The notes under the pieces were generated by a model. It saw nothing but the letters and a program-made list of their open reading frames with translations. It did no database searches and had not been told where the DNA came from. Position numbers and translations under genes: made by a program. This document shows, one piece after another, positions 15,589-35,006 of a stretch of DNA of 64,000 nucleotides (its first letter is position 1; every line of letters starts with the position of its first letter). The stretch comes from Clostridia bacterium (lineage in GTDB: Bacteria > Bacillota > Clostridia > UBA1381): the NCBI GenBank assembly GCA_017621875.1, contig JAGASE010000021.1:1-64000 (forward strand), in the 5' to 3' direction.

Positions 15589-15620
15589 AGTAACATATTT
15601 TGGTATTGGAGGTAATGAAT

Positions 15621-16028
15621 TTGAATATAGCATGTATTGCACACGACAAGAAAAAAGAACTGATGATTCAGTTTTGCATCGCCTATAAGGGTATACTCGA
15701 GAAGCATTCCCTTTTCGCAACTGATAATACAGGTAAAATGATAACTGAAAATACCGGAATGAGCGTATATAGGTTTTTATCGGGCTCTCAGGGAGGAGAT
15801 CAGCAGATTGGTGCACGTGTCGCTTATAATGAGATCGACCTTGTACTTTTTTTCCGAGACCCAATAACGCCGGAGTCCTATGAGCCTGATATATCAAATC
15901 TTTTAAAGCTTTGTGATATGCATAATATCCCCATTGCAACAAATTTGGCAACGGCGGAGGTACTTATCCATGGTCTTGAAAGAGGAGATATGGACTGGAG
16001 AGATATTGTAAATCCAAAGCATAAATAA
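15621..16028 (+). CDS. mgsA: Methylglyoxal synthase
   Basis: A 135-residue cytosolic lyase that converts dihydroxyacetone phosphate to methylglyoxal and phosphate, a bypass of lower glycolysis when phosphate is scarce. It has the family's IAHDKKK start, the catalytic GGDQQ aspartate, FFRDP, and [11 protein letters not shown]. The TTG at 15621 is preferred because GGAGG lies eight bases upstream. An ATG at 15615 is too close to it, and this choice gives the family N terminus. Oddities: the usual ATGTTG phosphate loop is ATDNTG, and the histidine of the usual PHDPD/PHEPD segment is replaced (ESYEPD). Activity is therefore probable but not certain. Confidence 0.88.
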
Positions 16029-16088: not shown

Positions 16089-17864
16089 TCAGCAGGTTGT
16101 GTTCACAATTCGCTCGTCAATTCTTATTGTTGCATCATCCAAAAGCTGAGATTTGTGAAGATTGTGATGCATTTTTGCTCTGTCGTTTCTTGAAGACTTG
16201 TCCCTTGAGCCGGAAAAGATATATCCTTCGGTTCGCATATAAGCACACCATCTCATATGCTCGGTTATTGAGGCTGTTTCTCCCGACAAATGCTCTGCTT
16301 TCCTGTATTTGTCATGAATGGCAGTTGCCATTGAGGAATTTCTGCAGTACTCGGATTTTTCAAATTCCTTGATTGCTTTTTCTTTTTTTACTTCCCATTT
16401 TTCGGGCGTGTCATCGGGCGATTTTGCCCAGCTTAAATGGCAATTAAGTGCAAGCTCCTCCAGTTCTTCATTTATAATAGAGTTATATGAAAAACGGCTG
16501 CTTATATTTCCTATTATTTCTATATCATAGCTGTCGCCGGTATAATTAACAAGATTTCTGGTTTCTAAAATTTTGTATTTAATATCGCTGTAAACTATTG
16601 CTCTTATTACAGGATAAAGTCCGATACGCTCAAAAAGAATACGCAGGTTGATTGCTGTTTCAATATTAAGCTCATCGTTTCCGAGGGACACATAAACCAC
16701 CGAGGTGTTGGTAAGCGTGGAAACGATTTCGTGAAGCCTGTAGGTTTTGATATCAACTTCGTTGAAAAATTTGAGGTTATATCTTGCCTCTCCGAACTGC
16801 TCGTTTCCGTTAAGCGATATTATTTCGGGACATTCACTCTGAAAGCGTGCTTCGGCATTTTCCTTGTCAATAACATTTATTTCAAGATCATAGCCGGGTA
16901 GTTGTCCGCACCAAAGCAGAGCTTTTGCAATTTCCGTGCCGTAGCCGCCGAAGCCGACTATCAGGGTAGAAATGATTTTTTTGTCCTTGCGGACGGTTAC
17001 ATGCTCTGTTATCAGGCTGTTATAAATTATGGAATGAGCAAGCGAACGGTCCTCATTAATTCTGCGTACCTTCATAACGCCATGCTCAACCGAGTCAAGC
17101 AGCAGCTCGCCCTCTTTTGATGTGGAGAAGGTGTATACCTCGGTTTTCGGGCGGCTGTTGAATTTGTCTATTATATTAAGCGACGCCTCAAGATTGACCG
17201 ATTCATTCTCGCTTAAAGTAAAGAAGACTGTTCTTGTATCGGAGCCGCGGAGCTTAAGTCCTGCCTCAGTTATGTCCTTTTTAAAAAATATCGCTTTTAT
17301 TTCCTTTGCGTCTTCAATCAGGTCGTATGCGGCCTCATCCGATTCGGAAAAAACATTCATAAATGCAATGGCGGCAGTTGGGAATTTTTCTCGTATTGAC
17401 TTTGCCAGGGCAAGAGATTTTTCCGAAAGCTCGGACAGTACAAAGATGTCATTTTTGCGTGTTGTAAAGTATCTGAAATATGAGGTTATGCTTTCAAAAA
17501 AGGATAATACAAAGCTGAAGGTACAAATCGGAGCGGCAAACAAAAGAAAGGATAAATAGAAAAAGGTAATCCATGTATGCGTTCCGACAAGCCTAAAGGC
17601 TTCGCCGAGATTTCCGAAGTCATAGCCTGTTAGCATGACCTGTATTGTATGAAAAAGTGCAAGAAAAATTGCAGCGAGTTTACCATATGCAGCTCTATAA
17701 TCGGCAAAAAGCATTACGGAAAAGACTGACAAAAATGCACCTGCAACCAATATGTAGGATAATTTGATGCTTTTGTATTTTTTTTGAAGCTTTGATGTGG
17801 AAAATGCCAGATAAGCCGTAGCAATAAAAAAGCCTATCGATAAAATAAGACATAAATAACTCAT
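16089..17864 (-). CDS. Membrane protein with two RCK/TrkA-N-like domains and RyR-like tail
   Basis: A 591-residue protein with four N-terminal hydrophobic segments (about 2-21, 35-57, 63-85 and 94-130). A first Rossmann-like domain follows (RKNDIFVLSELSEKSLALAK), and then a second with the dinucleotide loop VGFGGYGTEIAKAL. The C terminus (EHMRWCAYMRTEGYIFSGSRD..MHHNL) matches the RyR-domain pattern of EHxRW, GxxxG-RD and H-P/N-L. The layout suggests a ligand-gated ion channel or a membrane sensor of a nucleotide-like signal. The start at 17864 (MSYLCLIL) has AAGGAG seven bases upstream; a 20-residue upstream extension has none. It is divergent from the CARF-nuclease gene. Ion selectivity and ligand are unknown. 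Confidence 0.75.
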   Translation of the reverse strand: MSYLCLILSIGFFIATAYLAFSTSKLQKKYKSIKLSYILVAGAFLSVFSVMLFADYRAAYGKLAAIFLALFHTIQVMLTGYDFGNLGEAFRLVGTHTWITFFYLSFLLFAAPICTFSFVLSFFESITSYFRYFTTRKNDIFVLSELSEKSLALAKSIREKFPTAAIAFMNVFSESDEAAYDLIEDAKEIKAIFFKKDITEAGLKLRGSDTRTVFFTLSENESVNLEASLNIIDKFNSRPKTEVYTFSTSKEGELLLDSVEHGVMKVRRINEDRSLAHSIIYNSLITEHVTVRKDKKIISTLIVGFGGYGTEIAKALLWCGQLPGYDLEINVIDKENAEARFQSECPEIISLNGNEQFGEARYNLKFFNEVDIKTYRLHEIVSTLTNTSVVYVSLGNDELNIETAINLRILFERIGLYPVIRAIVYSDIKYKILETRNLVNYTGDSYDIEIIGNISSRFSYNSIINEELEELALNCHLSWAKSPDDTPEKWEVKKEKAIKEFEKSEYCRNSSMATAIHDKYRKAEHLSGETASITEHMRWCAYMRTEGYIFSGSRDKSSRNDRAKMHHNLHKSQLLDDATIRIDERIVNTTC

Positions 17865-17933
17865 AGTACGCTCCTTGTTTTTGTAACTTTGTAATTTTTC
17901 TGCCATGCCGGGCAGAGGTGTCAATGTGATAAA

Positions 17934-17989: not shown

Positions 17990-18018
17990 TTGAATTTTAA
18001 GAGGGGGTATGATATAAT
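17990..18018 (+). promoter_or_regulatory. Promoter of the CARF-nuclease/AAA/ClpP transcript
   Basis: TTGAAT (17990-17995), 17-bp spacer and perfect TATAAT (18013-18018). The predicted start near 18025 leaves a leader of only about 8 nt before the GTG codon at 18033. Confidence 0.75.
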
Positions 18019-18032
18019 AATTAGAACTGGGG

Positions 18033-19259
18033 GTGCTTGAAATTAAAACTCTAATTGAATTATTTGACAGCTGTCAGATTGAAAATGTCATTGCGGGACT
18101 GAGGTTTAAGCCCGAAAAGATTATATTTGTCGGCTTTAAAGAGGTAATGACCAGAAAGAGGACGGAGGACCTCAAGCGTTTTTTTGAATTACGCGGCGTG
18201 AATATTGCCACAGAATATGAGGTTGTGGGCAGATATGATTTTGATTTTATTGTAAATAAGCTTAATGAGATACTTGATAACAACGAGGACTGCTGCTTTG
18301 ACCTGACCGGCGGCAAAGAGCTTGTGCTGGCGGCTATGGGCATGGTGTCTGCACTAAGGGATATTCCCATGCTGCAGTTTAACGTGAGGTCGGGGAACCT
18401 TATCAGAGTTAAAAACTGCGATGATATTGAGGATACGCAGAAATCTTCAATGCTGATAAGCGAGAGCGTTGTGTTAAACGGCGGAGTGATTGTTTACAAT
18501 GATAACGAGGATTTTAAATGGGAGCTGACCGCGGATTTTAAGCGTGATATTGATACAATATGGAGAATGTGCAAAAGAAATTGCGGACTTTGGAACAGGC
18601 AGTCAAATGTCTTTGAAAGCTTTGAGCGGTTCGGAAGAATTGACGACACTCTTACTGTAAGCGTAAGCTTAAAGCATATGCGTGACGGCAAGCACGATAC
18701 AATGCTTAATTCGAGAATTATTAATGAGCTGATTAAAAACGAGCTGATTATGGATTTTGTCTGCGAGGAGGACTATCTGACCTTCAGATATAAAAACGTA
18801 CAGGTTCGCCAATGCCTCATAAAGGCAGGGAATATTTTAGAGCTTTATGCTTACATGACCGCAAGGGAGATTGCAAAGGAAGAGCCTGATTATTACGATG
18901 ATATTGATATCGGAGTCTTCGTGGACTGGGACGGAATAATTCATGACGGCACTACACAGGAAAGGGACACCAGAAACGAAATTGACATTATTCTTATGCG
19001 TGATTTAATTCCGATTTTTATATCCTGTAAGAACGGTGAGGTACATAAGGAGGCTTTGTATGAGCTGTCTGCAGTTGCGGAGAGATTCGGCGGAGAGTAT
19101 GCCAAAAAAATTCTTTTAACAACGTATGTAAGTCAGGACGCAGAAAGCCGCAAATATCTTCTTCAGCGGGCAAGGGATATGCAGATTGACGTTATTGAGG
19201 GCGTTGACAGAATGGACAAGGACGAATTTTTTGCAACACTCAGAAAGAGAGCTAAATAA
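18033..19259 (+). CDS. Card1/Can2-like protein: CARF domain plus PD-(D/E)XK nuclease (DUF1887)
   Basis: A 408-residue protein. The N-terminal half is CARF-like, with the motif DLTGGKE at residues 90-96, where this family binds cyclic oligoadenylate. The C-terminal half carries nuclease motifs: NILELYAY (E270), NEIDIIL (D318) and FISCKNG (K333). Relatives (Card1, Can2, DUF1887) are type III CRISPR ancillary nucleases activated by cyclic oligonucleotides. No CRISPR array, Cas10 or cas gene is visible within 64 kb. The activator may come from elsewhere, or the CARF domain may sense another nucleotide. In the E-x-K motif the acid position is Ser331. GTG start with an almost leaderless mRNA. The AAA+ gene follows after 31 bp. 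Confidence 0.82.
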   Translation: MLEIKTLIELFDSCQIENVIAGLRFKPEKIIFVGFKEVMTRKRTEDLKRFFELRGVNIATEYEVVGRYDFDFIVNKLNEILDNNEDCCFDLTGGKELVLAAMGMVSALRDIPMLQFNVRSGNLIRVKNCDDIEDTQKSSMLISESVVLNGGVIVYNDNEDFKWELTADFKRDIDTIWRMCKRNCGLWNRQSNVFESFERFGRIDDTLTVSVSLKHMRDGKHDTMLNSRIINELIKNELIMDFVCEEDYLTFRYKNVQVRQCLIKAGNILELYAYMTAREIAKEEPDYYDDIDIGVFVDWDGIIHDGTTQERDTRNEIDIILMRDLIPIFISCKNGEVHKEALYELSAVAERFGGEYAKKILLTTYVSQDAESRKYLLQRARDMQIDVIEGVDRMDKDEFFATLRKRAK

Positions 19260-19290: not shown

Positions 19291-21375
19291 ATGAAAGCCG
19301 GAATATTGGTTATAAAATTTGAGCAGGAATGGATTTCACAGAATGAGGATAGATATTCTGTTATAGATGATGTTCTGCGTGCGATAAGACCGCATTACAA
19401 TGACGGTATGCTTGTGGTAGTAGACAAGGACGAAAATCAGTGCCGAGTGGTTGTGGCGGGAGATAAGCTCCTCGACGAAAGTGAGGTTATCGGTCTTGTT
19501 AAAAGCGATGTTTTAGATGAGGGCGAAGAGGTAAAATGCGATGTAAGCCTTGAGGATGCGGACAGTGAGAAGCTTAAAAGCGTTTTAGAGCCGATAAGGG
19601 ACGAGCTTTTGGGACGGTACATACGGATTTTGAAGGAAGAATTTGCAGTCGATTTTCCGCCCAATAAAGTGGCAGCGGTAAAGGAAGAAATGCATAAGGA
19701 GAGTCAGAATAAGGATAAGGAAGAAGCTGAGCTTATAGGAATTGAGCCGATTAAGGCATGGGCAAATGAGCTTGAAGTAATCTCCAAAAGATTCAAGGAC
19801 TTTACGCTTGATTCGGAGGTTATTAATAACCAGACATTTATTTTATCTATAAACAAGGGCAACGGTCTTACAACGGTTTTGAAGCTTATGACAAGGGCAT
19901 TGGAGCAGTCGGGACTTATGCGATTCCGCGGAACAAAGGAATTTGTTGAATGGAAACTGGAATATAACGACAGCCCGAATGAATTTCCAAGCTTTGAGGG
20001 ACTTTTAAAGGCGATAAACAGGTGTGAGGACGGCGAGAATTACAGAGGTCTTGTATGCATAAACATGGAGGAATGGCTGGACCATCTTTCGGATAAAAGA
20101 ATAGACCAGCTGCTGCGGTTTGTATGGGGTTTCAGAAATCAGATAATCTTTGTTTTCACAATTCCGTATGCAGAGGATTCCGTTATTGAAAAGCTGTACG
20201 ACAGAATTGACGACATAATAAGCGTACGAACAATGAAGTTTGTGCCGCCGTCAGACGAGCAGTATTTTGTCTTTTTCAAAGGCTTTTTTGAAAAATATAA
20301 TATTTCCGTTTCGGATAATGTGAAGGCAGCCTTTATTTCCAAGATGACAGAGGAGAAAAATGACGGTAAATTTTACGGATTTAACACTGTGAATAAAATC
20401 GCCAACGAGCTTTTGTATAACGCCATTGTAAATGCTGCAAAAAATGACACTGAAATTTCTAAAGAGATAACAGCGGAGGATTTTGCAAAGCTGTACGGAA
20501 TAGAGGAAACGCAGGATATAAGCGGAGTTGAGCAGCTTAATGGAATGGTAGCTTTGGAGGACGTTAAAAACAAGGTACGCGAAATATTGTCAATGGTTAA
20601 GCTTCAAAAGGAGCTGTATGCTAAGGGAAATTCCGAAATAAAGCCATGCTTCCATATGATGTTTTTGGGAAATCCGGGAACGGGTAAAACTGTCGTAGCA
20701 AGAATAATCGGCAGAATCTTTAAGGAGGAGGGACTTCTTGAGATAGGTAATTTCTTCGAGGTATCAAGAAAGGATTTTATCGGTAAATTTGTCGGTCATA
20801 CCGCTCCTAAAACTATGGAAATCTGCAGAAATGCATACGGCTCGGTGCTTTTTATCGACGAGGCGTATACGCTTGCGGATGAAAGAGACGGCTACAGCAA
20901 AGAGGCAATAGGAACGCTGATTGCCGAAATGGAAAATAACCGCGATAAAATGGTTGTGATTTTTGCCGGATACGAAAAAGAGCTTGAGGAGCTGTTTGAC
21001 ATGAATCCCGGACTTCGCGACAGAATACCGCATAAGATTAATTTCCCTAACTATAACCGCGAGGAGCTTAAACAAATATTCTTCATGCACCTTAAAAATA
21101 AAATCAGCTGCGATGAAAGCTTTGAAAAAGAGGCAGACGTATTTTTCAGAGATTTCCCTGAGGAGATTATGCAGGAAAGAGATTTCAGTAACGGCAGATT
21201 TGTAAGAAATCTGGCGGAGCGAATTATTTCCAAGGCGGCAATGCGGTTTGAAATGTCGGGTACGGCAATAGAGGAATTTGCACTTACTGCAAATGATTTC
21301 AGCGTTGCTGTTGCAGATAATGATTTCAGTAAATTATTCAAGAAGGTGAAGCACGTAAAGACAATCGGATTTTAA
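19291..21375 (+). CDS. CbbX-like AAA+ ATPase ending in an IGF tail
   Basis: A 694-residue cytosolic protein. Residues 1-150 are acidic and of unknown fold. Residues about 180-330 look like a degenerate AAA module with a corrupted P-loop (SINKGNGLTT). Residues about 415-650 form an intact CbbX/SpoVK-type AAA+ domain with Walker A GNPGTGKT (460-467), Walker B VLFIDEA (519-525), a sensor-1 region MVVIFAGYEKE, and an arginine-finger region GLRDRIP. These ATPases remodel protein complexes. The protein ends ...KTIGF. The tripeptide IGF matches the ClpP-docking loop of ClpX-type unfoldases, and a ClpP gene is next. ATG start with AAGGTAGG upstream. It lies between the CARF nuclease and ClpP, probably in one operon. 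Confidence 0.85.
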   Translation: MKAGILVIKFEQEWISQNEDRYSVIDDVLRAIRPHYNDGMLVVVDKDENQCRVVVAGDKLLDESEVIGLVKSDVLDEGEEVKCDVSLEDADSEKLKSVLEPIRDELLGRYIRILKEEFAVDFPPNKVAAVKEEMHKESQNKDKEEAELIGIEPIKAWANELEVISKRFKDFTLDSEVINNQTFILSINKGNGLTTVLKLMTRALEQSGLMRFRGTKEFVEWKLEYNDSPNEFPSFEGLLKAINRCEDGENYRGLVCINMEEWLDHLSDKRIDQLLRFVWGFRNQIIFVFTIPYAEDSVIEKLYDRIDDIISVRTMKFVPPSDEQYFVFFKGFFEKYNISVSDNVKAAFISKMTEEKNDGKFYGFNTVNKIANELLYNAIVNAAKNDTEISKEITAEDFAKLYGIEETQDISGVEQLNGMVALEDVKNKVREILSMVKLQKELYAKGNSEIKPCFHMMFLGNPGTGKTVVARIIGRIFKEEGLLEIGNFFEVSRKDFIGKFVGHTAPKTMEICRNAYGSVLFIDEAYTLADERDGYSKEAIGTLIAEMENNRDKMVVIFAGYEKELEELFDMNPGLRDRIPHKINFPNYNREELKQIFFMHLKNKISCDESFEKEADVFFRDFPEEIMQERDFSNGRFVRNLAERIISKAAMRFEMSGTAIEEFALTANDFSVAVADNDFSKLFKKVKHVKTIGF

Positions 21376-21492: not shown

Positions 21493-22077
21493 ATGATTTT
21501 AATGCCTAATTTTTTTGAGAAGGAAAATGGAATGGAACGCGGATACGACCTTGCGTCACGTCTTTTAAAGGACAGAATTATTTTAATGTTCAGCGAGGTT
21601 AATGATGATTTGGCGTGCAGCATTATCGCACAGATGCTGTACTTAGAGTCGGTTGACCCCGATAAGGATATATATTTGTACATAAATTCGCCGGGCGGAT
21701 CGGTAAGTGCAGGTCTTGGCATATATGATACGATGCGTCACTTAAAGTGCGACGTTTCAACAATCTGCGTGGGACTTGCCGCAAGCATGGGAGCATTTTT
21801 ACTTTCTTCGGGAACGAAGGGAAAAAGGACATCACTTGAAAACAGTCAGATTATGATACATCAGCCTTTAGGCGGTGCACGCGGACAGGCAACCGATATA
21901 GAAATTACTGCAAGAAATATCATAAGAATAAAGGAACGCCTTAACACTATTTTAGCAAAAAATACAGGTCAGACGCTTGAGAAAATACAAAATGATACAG
22001 AGCGTGATAACTGGATGTTCCCGGAGGAAGCGTTAGAGTACGGCTTAATTGACCAAATTATCTCCGAGGACGAGTAA
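21493..22077 (+). CDS. clpP: ATP-dependent protease proteolytic subunit, ClpP family
   Basis: A 194-residue ClpP with the complete catalytic triad: S98 (GLAASMGAF), H123 (MIHQPLGG) and D172 (ERDNWM). [11 protein letters not shown] and the [11 protein letters not shown] region are also conserved. ClpP forms a barrel that needs an AAA+ unfoldase to feed it. No clpX or tig lies beside it, as would be usual for the housekeeping copy. Instead the neighbour is the IGF-ended AAA+ protein, suggesting a dedicated paralogue. Without the rest of the genome it could still be the only ClpP. ATG start, AAAGGAGG eleven bases upstream. A terminator follows. Confidence 0.92.
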
Positions 22078-22098
22078 AAATTGATTTTATGCTGACTT

Positions 22099-22127
22099 CC
22101 TCCGATAGAAATATCGGGGGATTTTTT
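22099..22127 (+). terminator. Terminator after ClpP
   Basis: CCTCCGATA, loop GAAA and TATCGGGGG form a 9-bp stem followed by a T6 run. It closes the CARF-AAA-ClpP transcript. Confidence 0.88.
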
Positions 22128-22305: not shown

Positions 22306-24447
22306 ATGAAAAAAAGTATAAAGCATATGGCAATATGCATGCTTTTGATTGTGCTGAGTGTGTTTCAGCTTGACTGTGGAACGGTTTTGGAGGCGGCAAC
22401 AGTAACCAAAAACAGCAAAACCTATGAGATTGCGGTTGTGTTTGACAATTCCGGCTCGATGTATAAGAATCAGGCATGGTGCAGAGCCAAGTATGCAATG
22501 GAAATTTTTGCGTCAATGATGAACTACGAAAACGGAGATGTATTAAAAATATTTCCTATGTGGCCCGTAACGACCGACGGTACTAAGCCTGCTTCGGGCG
22601 GAAGCTATGAAGGAATTGAAATAAGAAGCAGCAGTGATATTAATAAAATAAGCAATTTATATACGGTAGTGGCGTCCAATACGCCGTTTGCTCCTGTTAC
22701 CGAGGCGTATAACGCACTTTTAGGCTCAGGTGCGAGCGAAAAATGGCTTATAGTTTTAACCGATGGTGAATTTAACGAGGAGGCTCGCGGACAAAAGGCG
22801 ACAATAAAGCTGCAGAGCAGGCTTTCGGAGCTGGCGTCGGAAAATATCAAGGTGCAGTATCTGGGAATGGGAGCGGCTACGGCGTTAAAATCCGATGAAT
22901 CTCGGTGCTTTTATGCAAAAAAATCCTCCGAAACAAGCCTTAAAGAGGATTTGGTGAGCATATGCAATACTATTTTTCAGCGTTCTGCCCTGCCGAATAA
23001 TTATTTGTCAGGCTCTGCGTTGACGCTTGATATGTCCATGAAAAATCTCATTGTATTTGTCCAGGGAGCGGACGCCAAAATCGGCTCGCTGCTTGCTGCG
23101 GACAATACCCCTGTAAAGGAAATCTTAAACAGCGGGCAGAGAAGGTACAGTGAAATTAAGGCGGGCGGATATGAGAACGCACCTGTTGATACAACCTTGG
23201 CAGGTCAGGTTGTTACCTTCGGACCGTGTCCCAAGGGCAGCTACACGCTGGAATATTCAAACGCTGCGTCGATTCAGGTCTTCTATGAGCCTGATGTTGA
23301 TATAAGCCTGTCGCTGACAAACAGTGACGGACAGCCGGTTGATTATAAAACAGGGCAGATAAGTGCCGGAAATTATACCGCAAATTACGGAATTATTGAC
23401 GCTGTTACAGGCGAGGACGTGACAAAATCGCCGCTTATGGGCAGCGATGTTGTTATGTCAGGAAAGCTCGTGGCATCAGACGGCACCGAAACGGAAATAA
23501 CAAGCGGCGGAACGGTCGCTATTAACCCCGATGATGCAACCAAGATTATAATTAAGGGTACATATCTTAAGGATTATACAATATCTACCGAAGACGATCC
23601 GGCTTCATTTCCGGCAATAAAGGTGGATTTTCCGGAGCTTAAAGGGCTGGGACTTAAGGCATCTACCGAACAGCCAAGCTCGTGGTTTCAGACAGGTAAG
23701 GAAAGCGGCTGGAAGCCCATCAGGGTTTCGGCAACGCTTGCAGGTGAGCCTCTTACAGATGAGCAGCTGTCGGCACTTATACCGAGTCTGACATTCTCAA
23801 AGGATATTACCTATTCATATAAAATCCTGCCGGGAGAGTCGGCGTTTGAAATTAATATAGGATATGATGAAAACGGCAGCTATACCAAGCCGGAGAGCGG
23901 AAAATATAAGCTAACAGCATCGGCAGCACTGACAGATGAATACGGACGTGATATGCAGGACGAGACCTCCATGGAATTTGAGGTACACGGCTACAGTGCA
24001 ATATGGCGGTGGCTGAAATGGCTGATAATTATTTTAATACTTCTATTAATTACGGCGTTTATCCTTACAAGAAAGGCATGGCCTAAGGAAATGTATTTTG
24101 TATGCGGAAAACGCAGAGGAAAAATCAATATCAGCAAAAATATGAATATTGTATCAAACGCCTATCCAAACGTACTGTCGTGTGCGGCGGAGAAATCCTC
24201 CAAGCTGTATCAGAAGTTCGGCAAAAGTGCGGGAGTTAGAATCACAAAGGTTACGCCGATGTTCAATGTGGTGTCCTTCAAAATCGGAAGCAGTCCCACA
24301 TACACTAAGGACGGCAAGGATTACGTGGACTCAAGCGGAAAGACGTTTAAGGGAGTAAACCTTAAGAACAACACGAGAATAATCGTGGAGTTTAAGGGAA
24401 ATAAGCCGCCTATAGACGGCAAAATAAGCATGAATGGTAAGAAATAA
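22306..24447 (+). CDS. Membrane-anchored extracellular vWA-domain protein
   Basis: A 713-residue protein with an N-terminal signal peptide and then a von Willebrand A domain (about 40-230). Its intact metal-binding motif is DNSGS (D47, S49, S51), and LTDGEF is also present. The middle is beta-rich and of unknown fold. One TM helix lies near residues 568-590 (WLKWLIIILILLLI), followed by a ~120-residue basic, positively ended cytoplasmic tail. Most of the protein therefore faces outside while the tail can contact cytosolic partners, plausibly the tubulin-like protein encoded 20 bp downstream. vWA domains bind proteins through Mg2+; the partner is unknown. AAAGGGGAAGG precedes the ATG. Confidence 0.82.
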   Translation: MKKSIKHMAICMLLIVLSVFQLDCGTVLEAATVTKNSKTYEIAVVFDNSGSMYKNQAWCRAKYAMEIFASMMNYENGDVLKIFPMWPVTTDGTKPASGGSYEGIEIRSSSDINKISNLYTVVASNTPFAPVTEAYNALLGSGASEKWLIVLTDGEFNEEARGQKATIKLQSRLSELASENIKVQYLGMGAATALKSDESRCFYAKKSSETSLKEDLVSICNTIFQRSALPNNYLSGSALTLDMSMKNLIVFVQGADAKIGSLLAADNTPVKEILNSGQRRYSEIKAGGYENAPVDTTLAGQVVTFGPCPKGSYTLEYSNAASIQVFYEPDVDISLSLTNSDGQPVDYKTGQISAGNYTANYGIIDAVTGEDVTKSPLMGSDVVMSGKLVASDGTETEITSGGTVAINPDDATKIIIKGTYLKDYTISTEDDPASFPAIKVDFPELKGLGLKASTEQPSSWFQTGKESGWKPIRVSATLAGEPLTDEQLSALIPSLTFSKDITYSYKILPGESAFEINIGYDENGSYTKPESGKYKLTASAALTDEYGRDMQDETSMEFEVHGYSAIWRWLKWLIIILILLLITAFILTRKAWPKEMYFVCGKRRGKINISKNMNIVSNAYPNVLSCAAEKSSKLYQKFGKSAGVRITKVTPMFNVVSFKIGSSPTYTKDGKDYVDSSGKTFKGVNLKNNTRIIVEFKGNKPPIDGKISMNGKK

Positions 24448-24467
24448 AAAGAAAAGGGGTAAAAACA

Positions 24468-27400
24468 ATGTACGAGAAGGAAAAAATTCAGCCAAATAAG
24501 GTAAATGCACCGGTACTTTTCATCGGAGTGGGCGGTATTGGCTCAAAAATAATTAAGGGCGTTGCGGACAGATGTATAGGCGATGATACAAGCAATATCC
24601 GCTTTGTTGTGATGGATACCGACGTAAATGATTTGATTAATGTCGATAAAGGAGCAAATATTACTGCGGTGCAGACCTCGTCGACAAGCACAGTCGAGGA
24701 CTATCTCAAAAACGACCATGACGCGAAAAACGGCTGGTTCCCGGAGAATAAGATGCTTGACCCGAAGGCAGTTTCTGAGGGTGCAGGTCAGGTGCGTGCA
24801 ATTTCAAGGCTTGCATTAAACGCTACAATTAAGCAGGGAAATATACATCATTTATATAAGGCGATTGACGATTTGTTCTTAAAGGACGGCGGCGGACTCA
24901 AGCAGGCTATCCGCGTGGTTATCGCTTCAACAGCTGCCGGCGGAACAGGCTCCGGTATCGCAATGGAAACAGGTATGCTTGTGCGGCATTATGTTAAAAA
25001 GAACTATCCTGAGGCTGCGGTAATGATTCGCGGATTTCTTATCATGCCGGGAGTTATGGATACAGTAATCAAAACTCAGAGCGAAAAGGACAGCCTGCGT
25101 TGTAACGGCTATGCAACAATTAAGGAAATTAATGCGTTTATGATGAAAGGCAGCGGATTTTTTGATACTGTCCCTGAGCTTCATCGTTACAAGGACTTGC
25201 ATATAATGATTCCAAGCACCTCAAACGGCGACGAAAAGCTTAGCAATCTGCCGTTCGATTTCTGCTTCCTGCTCGACAGAACCGACTCAAATGCAGGCAA
25301 TATGACAACGCTGGGACAATATATAAACTATGCCGCACAGTCGATTTATGAGCAGAACATCGGTCCTATGAGAAGCAAGGCGGCAAGTATGGAGGATAAC
25401 GTTTTAAAGCTTTGCATAAGCCCGGAAAAGCTCGGCAGATGCCGCTTCGGCGGAACAGGTGCGTCGGTGCTTAAATATCCGTATGAGGACGTAAGAGATT
25501 ATATTGCACTTAACTGGACTCGTGCCTCAATCATAGGCTCTTCCGCGGACGATAAGCTTACCGAGGAGGAAAGAAAGGCACTGCTTAAAAGCTCCTGGCT
25601 GCAGTTTGACGCGAAGTTTATTGAGGAAAGAAAGAAGTGGGACGACAACCCGAACAGAAGTGCCAAGAATGAGCCTACGCTTGCCGGCGTTTACACTGCC
25701 TCGATGGAGGGCGGAAAGGACAGCTCTGCAGGAAATGAGTTCACCTCAATGCTTTGGGATAAATACATAACTCCGAAGATTGACGCTTTATCAGGCGGTG
25801 CAAGGACTACCGAAAGACTTGCCAAAAGCTATATAAAGCTGATTGTTGATGAAGCAATCAAGCACAGACTTTCACTGGATTTCCCTGAAATGCTTGACGA
25901 TATTATGACAGGACAAAAGCCGGTTTCGGAAAGAGGCGGCTTTGAGGCGAAATATCAGAGCATTTATCGACTTGAGAGCATGAGCCGTGATGAAAGCATG
26001 CCTGAAATTACCAAGAACTTTGCAAGAGAGGTTTTCGGAAGCAAGGCACCTATTGAAAAAGAGGATTTGGGCGAGTATATGCTCGAAAAATATCTGTCGA
26101 TAAACGGCAAGGCAATCCACCCGAACGCTGCAAGACACCTGCTGTATGAGCTGAAAAAGGCACTTGAAAGTGAATGGATAGACGCACAGAAAGGCTCTGA
26201 TGAGGCGGCGTTTAGTGAAGAGGTAAGAACAATCTGCTACGGTCAGGACAGCGGCAACGGAAAACGCGACACCTCTGAATTTGACGTAAAGGGTAGCCTT
26301 ATCAACAAGGAAAAGGACCTTCTTACTATGTGTCAGTCCTGCGATGAAAAGGGCAACTCAAACGACATGGAGGAATGCGAGGGTAAGCTTTCGGTTTACT
26401 TTGAGCGTGTTGAAAAGTTCTACACCTGTATTATCAAGAATGAAATCTGTGCCGTTGCAATTCCTGCGGTAAGCAGACTTATAAAGGCATATGAGGCGTT
26501 CTATGCAACCTTTGAGAGCAAGGTGCCGAGCATTGAACGCAAAAAAGAGGATATCGTAACCAAGCTGCAGTTTAAAAACGGTGACTGCGTGAAATACGTT
26601 CTTGGTGAGAAAAAATATCTCGATAAGCTCACAGCAAGCGTCGGACGTCCTGCCGATACGGGAGACGAGGCTTCCAAGCTGTACGCGAAAATATTTGAGT
26701 CGGTAAGAGACAATGCTTATATTGAGGAGCGTAAGAGCGTTAATCCGTTTGCATATGAGGCAAAGAAGGATATTTTTGACGATATAATCATTGAATATTA
26801 TAAGGACAGAGTTGAGGAATGCTGCGACATAATCAATGTAAAGGGCATTCTGCAGGCAATTAAGCTGGAATATGACGTGAAAAGCTCAATCGAGCTTGAT
26901 GAGGTAAGCGAGGAGCTGAAGGACACAAGGGCTGCGGAAATTCACAGTCCGAGCAGACTTAATAAGTATATTACATCTATGATAAATAAGTGTAATAACC
27001 TTGCAAGCCCGGGAATTAAGAAGAAGGACAATGATGAGCCGAGAGAGGTAAGTGCTATTGCTTGCAACGACGGTATTGCAGACGGCGAGGGCATAAGAGT
27101 GAACGATTTTGTGCCGGAGGCTGTTCGTACCGATACAGTTTCAAAATACGAGCTGCATTTCTTCCGTTCGGTTTACAACATTATGCCGACGCAGCTTGCG
27201 AAGCTCAGTGCACCTTCTTATGATGACGAAACAGATGAGTTTTCACTCAGCGGCGAAAACGCATATGATCAGCTTTCAGCCGGCGATTATTTCCGTATTT
27301 ATCAGAAGTACATGGATAGAATCGGACCTGACTGCAAAACAAGTGCTATTATCACTCCGCACGTTGATATGCGTTGGAATGCAATAGTAACAATGCCTGA

Positions 27401-28133
27401 GCTTGACCTTGATTATCAGAAGAGACTGATGAGAAAAATTCATAAGTCAATGATTTACGGCTTTATCTATGACAGAATCCATCTGTTTGCAACCTTGGAT
27501 GAAGGCTCTGACGAAAAGAACTACAAATACTTAAATTCGGAAAATGACCCGTGTGATTTGATTGTATCAAACAAAACAAAATGCGACGTGCTTTATGAGG
27601 TTTTAGACTCTTTGTATAACGACCGTCTTGCGGTATCGGTTATCCGTGAATACGTAAATAAGCTACGCGATAAGAGCAGGTCTGCAGGATTCCAGTCATA
27701 TGAGGACATTGAATTCTTTAAAATGTTAAAGAGCTTCAGATATAAGAAATTCATCAATGAGCCGGCTCTTAAGGGACTTGACGAGCAGGTTTCACTGTTT
27801 ACCGTTGTGCTTATGTACTGTAACTCACTTCCTGCACAGAACAAGGATATGGCGGAAATGAAGACAATGGTAGAGTCAATTATAGAAATGATTTACTCTG
27901 AGATGAACCTCTGTACGTCAAACAAGGACAGCATTTGTGCAAAGGTTGCGGATATTCTTATTGAACAGTTTAACTGCCTGATTGACAACTATAATGCACA
28001 TTCAAACGTATTAAAGTGCGGTAACTTCTCGGATCAGGTTATCGGTGCAATCCGCAGAACGCTCTGCAGCTTTATGGATAAGAGAGATTTGGAAAGCTAT
28101 AAGGATAGGCTGACAGTTTTTGAAGAGGATTAA
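24468..28133 (+). CDS. Tubulin/FtsZ-like GTPase-domain protein (Tubulin_2 type)
   Basis: A very large cytosolic protein of 1221 residues. The N-terminal ~400 residues carry tubulin-superfamily features. These are a glycine-rich first loop FIGVGGIGSK (18-27) and the tubulin signature loop STAAGGTGSG (154-163; compare GGGTGSG of FtsZ). A later PFDFCFLLDRTDSN segment is typical of the prokaryotic Tubulin-like family. The remaining ~800 residues are helical and unassigned, much larger than FtsZ or TubZ. Such proteins are suspected to form membrane-linked filaments or scaffolds; GTP binding is inferred. It is flanked by membrane proteins on both sides. The RBS AAAAGGGG lies before the ATG. Confidence 0.85.
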   Translation: MYEKEKIQPNKVNAPVLFIGVGGIGSKIIKGVADRCIGDDTSNIRFVVMDTDVNDLINVDKGANITAVQTSSTSTVEDYLKNDHDAKNGWFPENKMLDPKAVSEGAGQVRAISRLALNATIKQGNIHHLYKAIDDLFLKDGGGLKQAIRVVIASTAAGGTGSGIAMETGMLVRHYVKKNYPEAAVMIRGFLIMPGVMDTVIKTQSEKDSLRCNGYATIKEINAFMMKGSGFFDTVPELHRYKDLHIMIPSTSNGDEKLSNLPFDFCFLLDRTDSNAGNMTTLGQYINYAAQSIYEQNIGPMRSKAASMEDNVLKLCISPEKLGRCRFGGTGASVLKYPYEDVRDYIALNWTRASIIGSSADDKLTEEERKALLKSSWLQFDAKFIEERKKWDDNPNRSAKNEPTLAGVYTASMEGGKDSSAGNEFTSMLWDKYITPKIDALSGGARTTERLAKSYIKLIVDEAIKHRLSLDFPEMLDDIMTGQKPVSERGGFEAKYQSIYRLESMSRDESMPEITKNFAREVFGSKAPIEKEDLGEYMLEKYLSINGKAIHPNAARHLLYELKKALESEWIDAQKGSDEAAFSEEVRTICYGQDSGNGKRDTSEFDVKGSLINKEKDLLTMCQSCDEKGNSNDMEECEGKLSVYFERVEKFYTCIIKNEICAVAIPAVSRLIKAYEAFYATFESKVPSIERKKEDIVTKLQFKNGDCVKYVLGEKKYLDKLTASVGRPADTGDEASKLYAKIFESVRDNAYIEERKSVNPFAYEAKKDIFDDIIIEYYKDRVEECCDIINVKGILQAIKLEYDVKSSIELDEVSEELKDTRAAEIHSPSRLNKYITSMINKCNNLASPGIKKKDNDEPREVSAIACNDGIADGEGIRVNDFVPEAVRTDTVSKYELHFFRSVYNIMPTQLAKLSAPSYDDETDEFSLSGENAYDQLSAGDYFRIYQKYMDRIGPDCKTSAIITPHVDMRWNAIVTMPELDLDYQKRLMRKIHKSMIYGFIYDRIHLFATLDEGSDEKNYKYLNSENDPCDLIVSNKTKCDVLYEVLDSLYNDRLAVSVIREYVNKLRDKSRSAGFQSYEDIEFFKMLKSFRYKKFINEPALKGLDEQVSLFTVVLMYCNSLPAQNKDMAEMKTMVESIIEMIYSEMNLCTSNKDSICAKVADILIEQFNCLIDNYNAHSNVLKCGNFSDQVIGAIRRTLCSFMDKRDLESYKDRLTVFEED

Positions 28134-28159
28134 TTTGTTTGAATTTTAAATTTTACAGC

Positions 28160-28178
28160 CCTCCGCTTTTGGCGGAGG
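28160..28178 (+). promoter_or_regulatory. Hairpin over a candidate ribosome site
   Basis: CCTCCGC, loop TTTTG and GCGGAGG form a 7-bp GC-rich stem just after the tubulin-like gene. The 3' arm contains GGAGG, so folding would hide a Shine-Dalgarno sequence for the next gene. Ribosomes finishing the upstream gene could open it (translational coupling). No T-run follows, so it is not a terminator. Confidence 0.5.
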
Positions 28179-28198
28179 ACTGCAAGGCGGTGAGAAAG

Positions 28199-30241
28199 AT
28201 GTTTACAGTTTTAATTTGTGACAAGCATATTATAAATGATTGTCATAATAAATATTACATATATTTTAAGCCCTTTCTTGACGATAAGAATTTTGCATTT
28301 TGCTCATGGAATACACAGGCTTCAAGCTTAGACGAGGCTGTTCCCGAATTAAAGAGTATTATAAGAGGTAAAAAGGAATGGCGTGCGATTGTTGTAAACG
28401 ACAGCTCAACATGGGATTTTAATTCAGTCAATAAAAGAAATCCTTTCAATTTTGTTGACAGCCAAAACGCCGTACCGGAGTTTTCTGATTTTTCTGTGGT
28501 GGAAAGCTTTAGGGCAGATGAGCAAAGAATGCTGTCAAAAGCTCTGTCAAATCCTCTTGTTAAGCTGTCGGTATGGCTGTGCGGCTCGCCTATCAAGGTA
28601 AAGCCGGAGGTATGCTATTCAGGCTATGAGGAGGCTATAAATAATCCGAAGGATTCAGCTGCATATTTTGCAAAGCTTAAAGAATTGGGACTTTCGGCAA
28701 AGGATGCCGAGGCTGACAGAAGCCGTGCGATAAAATTTGAACGCCTTTCGGAAATGTTTGATTTCGGCGGAGAGCTGTTCAATCCTCCACAGTCGTTTTT
28801 GGCGGTTAGCGAAAGAGCAAAGGATATTGAGCGTGAGCTTGCAGATGATGCATGGAAAACCCATACCGAGTTTGATTACTCGCATTTTTATACCGAAAAC
28901 CTGTACCCTGATAAGCTGAGATATCTGATATGTGATGTGTCGTATGTAAAAGGCGAGAGAAATGAAGGCTTGTATTTTAATTTCCTTACTCTTATGCTGC
29001 TTTTGGCATTAAATGAATGTCCGAGCGGCGTGCTTCGCCCAAATCGTGTATATACTTTGGGTGTGGAGATTGACTCGGACTGTGTGAGGGAGCTGTGCTA
29101 TAGGTATAATGCAAAGCTTACGGCAACTCTCGGCAAAATCAGCAGTATGTCAAGAAAGCTGTCCGAAAAGGAAAAGGAGCCGATAGACAGGGATACTGCA
29201 CGTATGTGCTTTGAAACCGATGTGGAAATTCCTGTTGAGGTTGATGGCGAGTTTGATAAAAAAAGACTGATGGCAGAATATGATAAAATCGGTCTTTCAA
29301 AGGATTGTCCAGAGGAGGAGTATAAGTATTGGAATGAGCAGTATCATTCAATCAGCAAGCTGTTTATACGCTACCTGCGTGAGCCGAGGCGTGCAGTTAA
29401 AACCGCCGCAAAGGTGGGACTTCGCAGCTCAAATAAGATATCGGATGAGCGTGCCCTGCAGCTGAATGAGTTTCAGCGTGAGGATATTGAGGACCATCTT
29501 TTGGAGGAAGAGCTCAACATGGTTTCAACAGTGACAACACAGCTTTACAATACCGAGGAATACAGAGCGGAAATAGATAAGGCTGATAAGCTGCTGCGGC
29601 GTGAAATCGGGCAGCGTATGACAAAGCGTAAAACGGTGTTTGCAGGACTTATTGCACTCGTTGCGTATTTTCTGGGATTTCTGCCTCTGTTTATAAGCAA
29701 CTTAAATACAACTAAGTCCTTCCTATTCTCGATGGGAGTTACGGGAGTCACGCTTTTAGTGTTCATGGTAATCGGATTTGTTTTTCTGTTTATTTTGAGA
29801 AAGAGGCTTGTGAAACGGTTTAAGGACTTTAATGACGCAATGAATGAAATTCTTGCGGAAATTGAAGCGGGGCTTGGAAAATTTTCAAAATATTTAAGTC
29901 ATGCATGTAATGTGATGCGTGGATTTTCGGTGCTTTCTTATACCGAAAATTCCTTTGAAAAAAGGCAGAATATTCTAAATCATCATAAAAATGTTATTCT
30001 AAATAAAATAAAAGAGGTAAACGAGTTGTTTTCTGATTACCTTACATCGGAAAACAGCGAGGCGGAGTGTAATATTCAGCCGTATGATTTTGATTTTGCA
30101 AAGTTAGTCGAATACAACTATGAAATGCCGTACAGCGGTGCAGCAAAGAGCATTGAGTTTATGCAGACGGGAAATCAGATACAAATACCGATTGATTACG
30201 TTAAATCGGTCAGCGTAAAAAGGGAGGAGTTATATGATTGA
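28199..30241 (+). CDS. Protein of unknown function with two TM helices
   Basis: A 680-residue protein I do not recognise. About 475 N-terminal residues are soluble, followed by two close TM helices (about 480-502 and 509-536). A short helical C-terminal region then ends in VKREELYD. The two helices with a short turn predict both large parts on the cytoplasmic side. The frame extends upstream to a TTG at 28139, but that region holds a hairpin. ATG 28199 (MFTVLICDK) or GTG 28190 are better starts. Its end overlaps the next gene by 8 bp, indicating tight coupling. Context suggests a membrane tether for the tubulin-like protein; this is inference. Confidence 0.7.
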   Translation: MFTVLICDKHIINDCHNKYYIYFKPFLDDKNFAFCSWNTQASSLDEAVPELKSIIRGKKEWRAIVVNDSSTWDFNSVNKRNPFNFVDSQNAVPEFSDFSVVESFRADEQRMLSKALSNPLVKLSVWLCGSPIKVKPEVCYSGYEEAINNPKDSAAYFAKLKELGLSAKDAEADRSRAIKFERLSEMFDFGGELFNPPQSFLAVSERAKDIERELADDAWKTHTEFDYSHFYTENLYPDKLRYLICDVSYVKGERNEGLYFNFLTLMLLLALNECPSGVLRPNRVYTLGVEIDSDCVRELCYRYNAKLTATLGKISSMSRKLSEKEKEPIDRDTARMCFETDVEIPVEVDGEFDKKRLMAEYDKIGLSKDCPEEEYKYWNEQYHSISKLFIRYLREPRRAVKTAAKVGLRSSNKISDERALQLNEFQREDIEDHLLEEELNMVSTVTTQLYNTEEYRAEIDKADKLLRREIGQRMTKRKTVFAGLIALVAYFLGFLPLFISNLNTTKSFLFSMGVTGVTLLVFMVIGFVFLFILRKRLVKRFKDFNDAMNEILAEIEAGLGKFSKYLSHACNVMRGFSVLSYTENSFEKRQNILNHHKNVILNKIKEVNELFSDYLTSENSEAECNIQPYDFDFAKLVEYNYEMPYSGAAKSIEFMQTGNQIQIPIDYVKSVSVKREELYD

Positions 30242-33200
30242 TAAAATATTGTTTATTGCAAAAATGGTCATGGCTGTTCTTCCTTTTGTTGTGCTTTGCT
30301 TTGCAAGCAGCGGGATAAACTTTGAAAAGCCGGAGCGGAGCAGGCAGTATCCAATGCCTGTGCTTTCACTGATATACCTCATAGTGCTGATGTTTGCGGT
30401 GGATTCGATAAATAATTGGATTTTGCATTTTATAAGAAATCTTCCTGTGTGGATTACAGAGCTTGGCAGTTCTTTTCCGGCAGAGCTTAGCGAAATGTTT
30501 GCGATGGCGGGTGAAAAGGTTAATGCTTTTATTGAAGGGCTTAATCTCAATTTCTGGATATTCTTTATATCCAACACCGTTATAATGCTGCTTTATTTGA
30601 CGGTAAAAAAGCTGTGTCTTGCAATAATAGACCGAGTTGTTCAGGAAGGCTCGGACATACATACCTTTGTTGCGGAGAATTTTTATGAATACTTTGCGGA
30701 AAAGGGAAAATGGTGTCTTCTGGAAAGCTATGTTCAGGCGAGAAGTCTTTTTAAGGTTTTCTATTACAGTGCAGTAATTTTGTCGGCTATGCTGATGCTT
30801 TTAAGCCGCCACTTTTATAACCAAGGCTTACTTGAAACAATTTACTATCCGGTATTCGGAGTTTTAATTGTGGGAGAGCTGTATTTTTATTTAGACGGTG
30901 CTACAAAGCGTGAATATTCGGTGGATATTCTCGGCGAGGACGAGGACGCGTACAGGGTAGTTAATTATTCGCTCCTGCGTAAGTTTCTGCGGAATCTGTT
31001 CGGCGATAAGCTGCTGGCGGAAAATACAAGCGTGAACAACACAATTTTTAATGACACTACCAATGACGAGGTTATAAGCAAGCTTGAAAAAAGCGAGGAT
31101 TTAAAGGTCACAGCCTTTGGTACGTATATGAGAACGCTCAATGATACCGGCTTTGACCTGGACCATAACTATATTGCCTCAGCCCTTGACCTTTTGTGCG
31201 GAAAAAGTATATTGTTTAACAATCCGTTCTATAACGACCTTATTCCGTATGCGTTTTATCCCATGAACCGCATGCTGCTTGAGCATAAAAAGGTGCTTGT
31301 AATTTTGGGAAGGCACGCAATCGAGGACGATATTAAGACGTGGCTTGAGGACGGAATTAACGCTGTTACAAATATTCCGTTTTTATGGAATATCGGCATT
31401 TTGGATTCGCAGAAAAACGGGGATATGGATATAGGCATTTTAACCCGTTCGGACGTTTTGGATATAAAGCTGCATAATGCAAATGCGGAGTTTCTTGAAA
31501 AGGTGGGTTACGTGGTAATTATTGAGCCTTCAAAGCTCATTTCTACCGCACAAATCGGACTTAATCTTATTATAAAGAAATGCCGCGGCGAGGAGGACAG
31601 AAGTATCACATACTGTCTTTGCGATAAAAACTGTGACGGCTTGGTTGACGCGATGTCGCATATTCTTATGACGAGCCTTACCGAGGTTTCGGCAACAAAT
31701 AAGCATAAGGGTACTTCGTCATACATGTGCTGGGAGGCGGATAATGAATATCTGCATCACAGAATTGTGCCGAATATATCAAGATATCTCGGATTGGGAA
31801 CAGAGCTTTCCTTTGCGGCACTTAAAAATCAGGTATCAAAAACGCAGTGGTTCGGCGGCGAGGCTTTTCCTGTTACCGACGCACGCTGGATAGATAAGCA
31901 ATATTATTATGACCTTATGAAATATTCAGGTCTGCCGACAAACCAGGAGGCAATGGACGAGAGGTTTTTGACCTCCGCGAATTTCTGGAGTGCAAAAACG
32001 GATAAGCATAATTACTTTACGGTTGAGGACGAGGCATTTAACATGTTTGAAATTCTAAGGAATTTCTCAACACGCTCAAAGGAGCAGGGCTTTATAAATG
32101 TTATTTCATCGGAATATCTGCTGAAGGACTATATGGCGGATAATGCGTCGATATTTGAAAGTGACGCAAAGGCAATCCCGTATGTTGTGGCAGATTATGT
32201 ACGCTCTGTACGGAATACGGTTTTGCGTCTTGTTCTGATGATGAGTACCTTCCCGGTAAATGCCGAGGTTTTAAAAAGAGAGCTGTCCTTAATCGGAATA
32301 AAGGTTTACGATATTAAAAAGCAGCTTTGGTATGAAATTTTTCGCTGCTATGCGGATACCAAAACCTTAAAGGAACTTCCCGAGGAGTACAGAGCAGCGG
32401 TTGAGGCGGCATCACAGCTGTCGCTGACCGATTTTGATAATGGTGAATGTAAGACGGATATAAGTCTTCTTTTAGAGGCAGACGAGTTTAACGCAAAATA
32501 CGGAAGAATGGAGCATACCTTCGCGATTAAGGATAGCTCTTTCCTTGACAGGTTTGTATCCGAGCTTAAATCCGCAGGATATGTCGCAGAGGACGAAAAG
32601 GGCGATAAATATTACCTGGGTGCAGAGCTGTGCGGTCATATTTATCAGAAGTATCTTCCGGGGCAATTCTTCACCTTCGGCGGTAAATATTATGAGATGC
32701 GTTATCTTACCGCGGACGGTCACGTGCTGGTAAGGCGTGCCGCAGACCATATTACCGACCGTGCGTCCTATCGGCAGATGCGTGAGTATACCATATGCGG
32801 AACAAAGCCAGCCGAGAGAATCGGCTCGTGCCGCGATATATCGGGAATGAAGGTTATACATGAGTATGCCGATATCAGGGTGGACACTCCGGGATATTAC
32901 ATCATGCAGAAGTATAACGATTTCGGAACTTCAAAGGCGGTATTGTTTGAGGGCGAAAAAAGCGGAATACCAAAAAGAGTTTATCGCAATAAGGAAATTT
33001 TAAGAATTGAGCTTCCGGATGGTGACGGAAAGCTTACCGATAGCGTGAGATATACCGTTGCTACGCTGTTTAATGAAATATTCAGGACGATGTTTGCCGA
33101 AAATCATGCATATATAGCAGCTGTTACCGATGACAGCTTCATCGCGGACAGCTCGGAGACTAAGCCGCTTACATATTCAATAAAAGCGGAGAACTGTGAG

Positions 33201-34685: not shown

Positions 34686-34721
34686 ATGGGTAAATTAAAA
34701 AACACCAAAAGGAGAATGAAA

Positions 34722-35006
34722 ATGTATATACCGAATCCTGTTGATACAAAAGATGTGGTGCTTGATGAAGAAATTCTGGAGCTGTCCGAATATCTTGCAA
34801 AAAATACGCATGAGGTGTGGGCAAAGGGTCGCATTGACGACGGCTGGTCATACGGAGCGGTGCGAAACGATGAAAAAAAGCTGCATCCCTGTCTTATTGA
34901 ATACGAGCTTTTGTCCGAGGCGGAAAAGGAATATGACAGACGTACCGCAATGGAAACCTTAAAGCTAATTATAAAGCTCGGCTATAAAATCAGCCGCGAA
35001 GACTAA
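34722..35006 (+). CDS. Single-domain RyR protein
   Basis: A 94-residue protein that is essentially one RyR domain: PNPVDTKDVVL, a helix LSEYLAKNTHEVWAKGRI, DDGWSYGAVRNDEKKLHPCL, and ELLSEAEKEYDRRTAMETLK. These match the ryanodine-receptor repeat pattern of HExWA, GWxYG, RD/RN and HPxL. In prokaryotes such domains occur with TIR, SLOG and CARF components and are proposed to bind nucleotide-like ligands. The ATG at 34722 has AAAAGGAG eight bases upstream; the frame extends 12 codons further without support. The TIR gene follows from its own promoter. A second RyR-like domain is in the 16089-17864 protein. Confidence 0.88.
   Translation: MYIPNPVDTKDVVLDEEILELSEYLAKNTHEVWAKGRIDDGWSYGAVRNDEKKLHPCLIEYELLSEAEKEYDRRTAMETLKLIIKLGYKISRED

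Follow-up and report, generated by a model that had tools for sequence, protein, structure and literature searches.

What does a CARF nuclease sense when no CRISPR system accompanies it? CARF domains are commonly read as sensors of cyclic oligoadenylates. A sequence-only reading of the 64,000-nucleotide stretch of DNA analyzed here (the window) had pointed to a Card1-like CARF nuclease without CRISPR context and had suggested that it may answer to a messenger from a different source. The window corresponds to contig 14 in a 24-contig genome of about 1.99 Mb (92.6% complete), the close relatives of which are gut Clostridia. Our analysis places the gene (Table 1) in a divergent clade of CARF nucleases with a pocket unlike that of cA4 receptors, in a recurrent context of RyR channels and proteases. 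There is a reasonable chance that it represents a new signaling module.

Table 1. Features of the window around the CARF nuclease gene
Feature	Position	Strand	Remarks
Membrane protein with tandem RCK/TrkA-like gating-ring domains and C-terminal RyR-like domain (HMRW...H)	16089–17924	−	divergent from CARF gene
Promoter-like site before CARF gene	17990–18018	+	TTGAAT-17-TATAAT, extended −10; consensus match only
CARF–PD-(D/E)XK (DUF1887/Crf4-type) predicted nuclease	18033–19259	+	408 codons, GTG start; acidic CARF pocket D12, E96; nuclease motifs E270, E316, D318, S331-x-K333
SpoVK/CbbX-type AAA+ ATPase (AAA_X)	19291–21375	+	Pfam AAA and AAA_lid_6
Second ClpP paralogue	21493–22077	+	other genome copy (G000:C18) 64% identical
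Intrinsic terminator closing CARF–AAA+–ClpP operon	22098–22121	+	strong, 3′ of clpP
vWA–FtsZl1–U700–U1457 operon (Tubulin_2 system)	22306–34607	+	follows CARF operon
Stand-alone RyR domain	34686–35006	+	PF02026, E = 5e-35
TIR domain and Sel1 protein	35104–36117	+	candidate maker of NAD-derived signal; directly after RyR

The CARF Nuclease and Its Operon

With a profile search, the CARF protein could be matched to the Pfam family PF09002 (Card1_endonuc) above the gathering score (E = 2.8e-6), and the PADLOC family CARF4--CARF_PDDEXK covers residues 5–397 (E = 6.5e-39). A phmmer search of PDB sequences with the single protein gave no match; a profile was required to reach its relatives. An AlphaFold2 model built from 58 homologues (mean pLDDT 95.4) contains an N-terminal CARF and a C-terminal PD-(D/E)XK domain in the DUF1887 fold, as in the Can2/Card1 class. 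The closest PDB structures are VC1899 (Z 32.8, 3.0 Å over 354 residues), Can2 (Z 29.3), and the DUF1887 protein 8bao (Z 27.2), followed by Cdn1 (Z 26.8) and Card1 (Z 24.9). These matches confirm the proposed identity as a Card1-like CARF–DUF1887 nuclease. Since the homologues begin at residue 4 or 5 of the window protein, the true start may lie a few codons after the GTG at 18033, which has a run of G very close to it (18033–18045).

The operon with AAA+ and ClpP that had been described earlier was also found: all three genes lie on one strand, separated by 31 and 118 bp, and a terminator follows clpP. An orthologue of AAA_X (665 aa, 34%) is located between the CARF and channel genes of locus L064, and a 90% identical ClpP occurs in genome G020 (L165) in a cluster that reads RyR (70%)–ClpP–metallophosphoesterase–AAA/M41. 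Because of these two cases, the AAA+ and ClpP neighbors look meaningful. ClpP genes beside CARF in L072 and L098 were set aside as support, since they encode different ClpPs (38–40% identical) and adjoin conjugation-type genes. We also rejected AAA_X as an orthologue of the AAA partner that is common among the relatives. The common partner, AAA/M41, combines Clp-like AAA_2, FtsH-like AAA, and peptidase M41 in one chain and shares with AAA_X only AAA-domain similarity. At L070:6551-10024 and in its relatives, this unusual fusion is a chain of 1160 aa.

Ligand Pocket and Active Site

The motif DLTGGK had been taken as the CARF signature of this protein. The letters are indeed present, but they mislead: K95 is variable (14/58), and where Can2, 8bao, and Cdn1 read T-K after TGG, the profile alignment places Glu96 of the window protein. 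The lysine of TGGK is thus ruled out as the canonical cA4-binding residue, represented in Can2 by Lys99, which touches a cA4 phosphate (PMC7969007). The contacts common to Can1 and Can2 are Ser19, Thr42, Lys99, and Tyr118 in Can2 numbering (PMC7969007). In a profile alignment with no superposed ligand complex, these residues correspond to D12, F35, E96, and Q115 of the window protein, so that all four are changed, two of them to acids. The charge inversion extends to the relatives: the Lys99 site is acidic (Glu or Asp) in 57 of 58, and the Ser19 site is Asp or Glu in 56 of 58. Since the cA4 contacts are replaced and the charge at the Lys99 site is inverted, canonical cA4 sensing by this CARF domain appears unlikely from sequence. 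For the same reason, the earlier suggestion of a messenger other than that of type III CRISPR is now a likely one.

The active site is also altered. From the E..D..E-x-K set of Can2/Card1, the window protein has E316, D318, and K333, with Ser331 in the E-x-K slot. This serine had been regarded as unusual. It turned out to be the rule of the family and no oddity of the window protein: Ser331 is invariant in 58/58 aligned relatives, including distant ones and members from CRISPR loci, although ascertainment contributes to this count, as one of the search patterns included SCK. E270, N315, E316, D318, and K333 are invariant among the same 58 sequences.

CRISPR and Messenger Makers

The window itself contains no CRISPR array according to a simple repeat scan. 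Cas10 (palm), Cas1, SMODS CD-NTase, and mCpol gave no match in the 92.6%-complete genome, from which about 7% may be missing. The genome thus offers neither the Cas10 of a type III system, as expected for Can2/Card1, nor the CD-NTase of CBASS. The sequence-only reading had named a type III locus elsewhere in the genome as the observation that would count against it; the search for Cas10 and Cas1 returned none.

To place the gene among its relatives, 84,980 species genomes were scanned, which yielded 195 relatives of the CARF protein, and 80 of their loci were read. The family is not free of CRISPR throughout. At least four relatives (L038, L072, L095, and L098) are located in type III-B/CorA loci: all four have CorA, three have Cmr genes in view, and arrays are present in the relatives' type III loci. 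These members are scattered on the CARF tree (four changes, at least three of them forced). A strong Cas10 match was found in only 6 of 60 CARF-bearing genomes and in 9 of 150 relatives' genomes, two of the latter with a full-length CARF relative. Judged from the whole set, the CARF gene mostly lives without Cas10, although single absences are weak because many genomes are incomplete. We did not count weak matches to PF22335 (E values no better than 1e-10) as Cas10, since their neighborhoods do not match Cmr genes. A CRISPR-like array lies near one weak palm-domain match (L131:933-2269, genome G196).

The company of the CRISPR-linked relatives offers a clue to the ligand. CorA is an effector of SAM-AMP (PMC10600005). 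The Cas10 proteins of CARF-bearing genomes are short (about 500–620 aa), contain GGDD, and in 7/7 cases have Asp at the position of D70 from B. fragilis, the aspartate of SAM-AMP synthase. This position was taken from the 9lq5 alignment, the numbering of which agrees with D70 and D328/D329. CorA is present at each complete Cas10 locus of the genomes with CARF (4/4) and gave no match at those of relatives that lack CARF (0/7; Fisher p = 0.003, small numbers; p = 0.008 without two short contigs). On account of these seven CARF-less loci, we rejected the idea that CorA generally accompanies Cas10 in Clostridia. In L124, a DEDD-like exonuclease (weak Pfam RNase_T match) lies between cmr6 and corA, an arrangement also known from other SAM-AMP loci. 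A 212-aa protein adjoining CARF and CorA (L098:8185-8820) has a weak match to the Card1 CARF (E = 0.013) and is possibly a stand-alone CARF.

Effectors in one locus usually have a common activator (PMC11229360), and the pocket of SAM-AMP lyase is electronegative (PMC12255297). Together with the company of CorA and D70-type Cas10, these observations make SAM-AMP or a like molecule our best guess for the ligand of the acidic CARF pocket. No CARF receptor for SAM-AMP is described in PMC10600005, PMC12255297, or PMC12669027. D70-type Cas10 and CorA accompany the CRISPR-linked relatives and are absent from the window genome; because this genome has no Cas10, a SAM-AMP ligand would have no source in the window.

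Recurrent Neighbors

Outside CRISPR, a different set of genes recurs. Of the 80 loci read, 30 (or 31 if the window is added) have RyR, an RCK-RyR channel, or AAA/M41 no more than seven genes from CARF. By homology, a RyR domain lies near CARF in 18 of the 80 loci and the AAA/M41 protease in 18. The partners nearly always share the strand of CARF (RyR 16/18, channel of either type 25/26, AAA/M41 17/18), many within 200 bp. RyR is otherwise rare: of 150 genomes of relatives, 10 gave any match. In the nearest relative (L026, 65%), RyR is located 34 bp upstream of CARF. The cultured isolate Peptoclostridium acidaminophilum has a distant relative (WP_025436982.1, 25%, S-x-K) on a plasmid, 40 bp after a potassium-channel gene (L180:4990-6966). 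A search of plasmids for CARF relatives gave one distant match, and a search of phages gave none. The context is patchy: in 46 of 80 loci, both the RyR set and CRISPR are missing from the vicinity of CARF, and 14 changes of context are required on the CARF tree. The RyR–CARF neighborhood may possibly have been noticed in earlier literature.

Three further observations concern these loci. A protein of 1432 aa that includes a nuclease stretch resembling DUF1887 (29%), encoded at L164:1993-6288 (G066) and 3 kb from a RyR gene, suggests a second, larger design of the pairing. In L059, L064, L045, L049, L090, and L104, CARF is accompanied by a sigma-factor-like gene (c6, 270–330 aa, no Pfam match), a small gene of anti-sigma-like type that is rich in Cys (c10), and genes for YbjN; the arrangement recalls the protease/anti-sigma design of Calp. 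Cluster c8 was disregarded as a partner because it consists of antisense-type ORFs.

The window has a version of each recurring partner: an RCK-RyR channel, a stand-alone RyR, and an AAA+ protease. The first two had been missed by the sequence-only reading. A structure model of the channel (16092–17864, pLDDT 80.9, lower in the membrane part) consists of N-terminal helices and two Rossmann units, and matches the gating rings of CASTOR/DMI1 (Z 18.7–18.1), KtrA (17.4), TrkA (16.9), GsuK (16.8), and Slo1 (15.1). Transmembrane helices with a tandem RCK ring are the hallmark of RCK-gated channels such as CASTOR, TrkA, GsuK, and Slo1, and the window protein shares them at the level of fold; no selectivity filter of the TVGYG type was noticed in its sequence. 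The C-terminal 55 residues match RyR domains (profile, 1.7e-11). Channel-like genes adjoin CARF in several relatives.

Relatives of the FtsZl1, vWA, and U1457 genes that follow the CARF operon recur near CARF in L073, L082, and L101. An FtsZl1 with 72% identity is found together with vWA in G213, and the four-gene set occurs in G128 (L158); CARF is in view in neither case. An mgsA-like gene (15600–16028) lies upstream of the island; since a 72% identical copy opens L026, the two loci may share an insertion hotspot.

Proposed Module and Alternatives

We favor the view, with a probability of about 0.5, that the CARF gene encodes the effector nuclease of a patchily inherited and mostly CRISPR-independent module with a role in defense or stress, gated by a messenger other than a cyclic oligoadenylate. 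A soluble messenger would bind to the dimeric CARF domain and close the dimer, which would switch on the PD-(D/E)XK domain for cutting of nucleic acid. Catalysis is assumed here, since Ser replaces the Glu of E-x-K in all relatives. The messenger may be SAM-AMP-like, ADPR-like, or another adenosine conjugate with lower negative charge than cA4; a SAM-AMP-like molecule or adenosine conjugate would fit best. The RCK-RyR membrane channel may act as a parallel effector that responds either to this messenger or to a linked nucleotide, and the stand-alone RyR protein may bind or remove the signal. The AAA+ protease would be a switch at the protein level, with a regulator or toxic effectors as its target; this arm would consist of the SpoVK-like AAA+ and its dedicated ClpP in the window, and of the fused Clp/FtsH-M41 in most relatives. 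TIR is one candidate signal maker for the RyR arm. Against such a module count the distance of the window RyR (15 kb), the divergent orientation of the channel gene, and the lack of orthology between AAA_X and AAA/M41.

An alternative is that the TIR protein drives the system, making an ADPR-type signal for RyR, the RCK-RyR channel, and possibly CARF, in the manner of Thoeris with channel and nuclease effectors. TIR starts 98 bp after RyR, and the channel ends in RyR too. The phage RyR enzyme RyDEP binds and cleaves 2'/3'cADPR by way of H75, W78, H100, and D117 (PMC13232231). The window RyR has H42, W45, H67, and D84 with exactly this spacing (the R12/ligand-residue set); in most relatives' RyR genes, the third ligand residue is Thr. 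The ThsB profile matches the TIR protein (E = 4e-4), and no ThsA was found among the scanned neighbors. However, a TIR gene was matched close to CARF at just one of the 80 loci, and weakly (L097), which leaves it unsupported as a conserved partner. In addition, the window TIR gene comes with a separate promoter-like site, the roles of TIR proteins are many, and the literature examined describes no CARF domain that binds ADPR-type ligands. We consider TIR-driven signaling unlikely.

A detached type III ancillary nuclease, that is, an ordinary Can2/Card1 protein for which the cA4-producing Cas10 was lost or is absent from the bin, would explain the shared fold and the relatives in type III loci with arrays, and the missing 7% of the genome could hold the locus. 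The replaced cA4 contacts with the inverted charge at the Lys99 site, the genome without Cas10 and Cas1, and the rarity of strong Cas10 matches across the family make this quite improbable, as does the finding that the CRISPR-linked members go with CorA and SAM-AMP-type systems and not with known cA4 systems.

It is very doubtful that the S-x-K nuclease is weakened or dead and that CARF is a nucleotide or RNA sensor regulating AAA+–ClpP or transcription. The family-wide loss of the E-x-K glutamate, the operon with AAA+ and ClpP, and the recurrence of genes that we read as sigma-like and anti-sigma-like would suit such a role, and the CARF domain of RtcR does work outside CRISPR (PMC9650030). 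Yet the five other invariant positions, E270 to K333, point to an active site that has been kept. The glutamate of E-x-K is also the position at which other PD-(D/E)XK families vary. Finally, that the CARF nuclease, AAA+/ClpP, channel, and RyR are independent cargo of one defense hotspot is highly improbable in view of the tight same-strand spacing and the rarity of RyR elsewhere, even though most loci lack the RyR set, the context changed often on the tree, and in G020 CARF lies on a different contig from RyR–ClpP–AAA/M41.

Returning to a module gated by a non-cyclic-oligoadenylate messenger, we tentatively extend it, at less than even odds, to the proposal that the S-x-K, acidic-pocket clade senses such a messenger, SAM-AMP or a close relative, and would be the first CARF family to do so. 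Outside CRISPR, the clade might then act together with a RyR-gated RCK channel and an AAA+ protease in an immune module that is so far undescribed, and a yet-unrecognized synthase would make the signal. With acidic residues at the site of the phosphate-binding lysine, a mostly Cas10-free distribution, and yet members in SAM-AMP-type loci, this clade makes two questions directly testable: which other sensors use SAM-AMP, and what CRISPR-free CARF proteins sense. Through the recurring RCK channel that terminates in a RyR domain, nucleotide-based immunity in bacteria would be linked to the ligand domain of the ryanodine receptors of animals.

Comparison with Known Systems

With the FtsZl1–vWA systems (Makarova & Koonin 2010, PMC2875224), the window shares the pair of vWA and Tubulin_2 genes after the CARF operon, whereas the parts of that description examined mention none of CARF, RyR, and ClpP. 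Like Thoeris and phage RyDEP, the window has a TIR gene adjoining a RyR domain in which all four ligand residues are present; it differs by having no ThsA among the scanned neighbors and by a chromosomal RyR in a CARF-nuclease island, where a second gene joins RyR to an RCK channel.

VC1899, a DUF1887 protein from Vibrio cholerae (PDB 1XMX), is the best structural match and also lacks the cA4 contacts of Can2, with Asp at the Ser19 site (PMC7969007). In contrast to the window protein, to which it is 18% identical, VC1899 retains E-x-K and has Arg at the Lys99 site; it was inactive in vitro in PMC7969007. Can2 and Card1 share the two-domain architecture, the whole-chain fold (Z 24.9–29.3), and the N-E-[IL]-D and K of the nuclease motif. 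The window protein differs from them by S-x-K in place of E-x-K, by replaced cA4 contacts and an acidic pocket, by the absence of Cas10 from the genome, and by its partners AAA+/ClpP, RCK-RyR channel, and RyR. From the SAM-AMP type III-B pathway (Cas10 D70, CorA, and NrN, DEDD, or lyase), the window genome differs in lacking Cas10, whereas the CRISPR-linked relatives adjoin Cmr–CorA genes and the layout of a channel with a soluble effector is the same.
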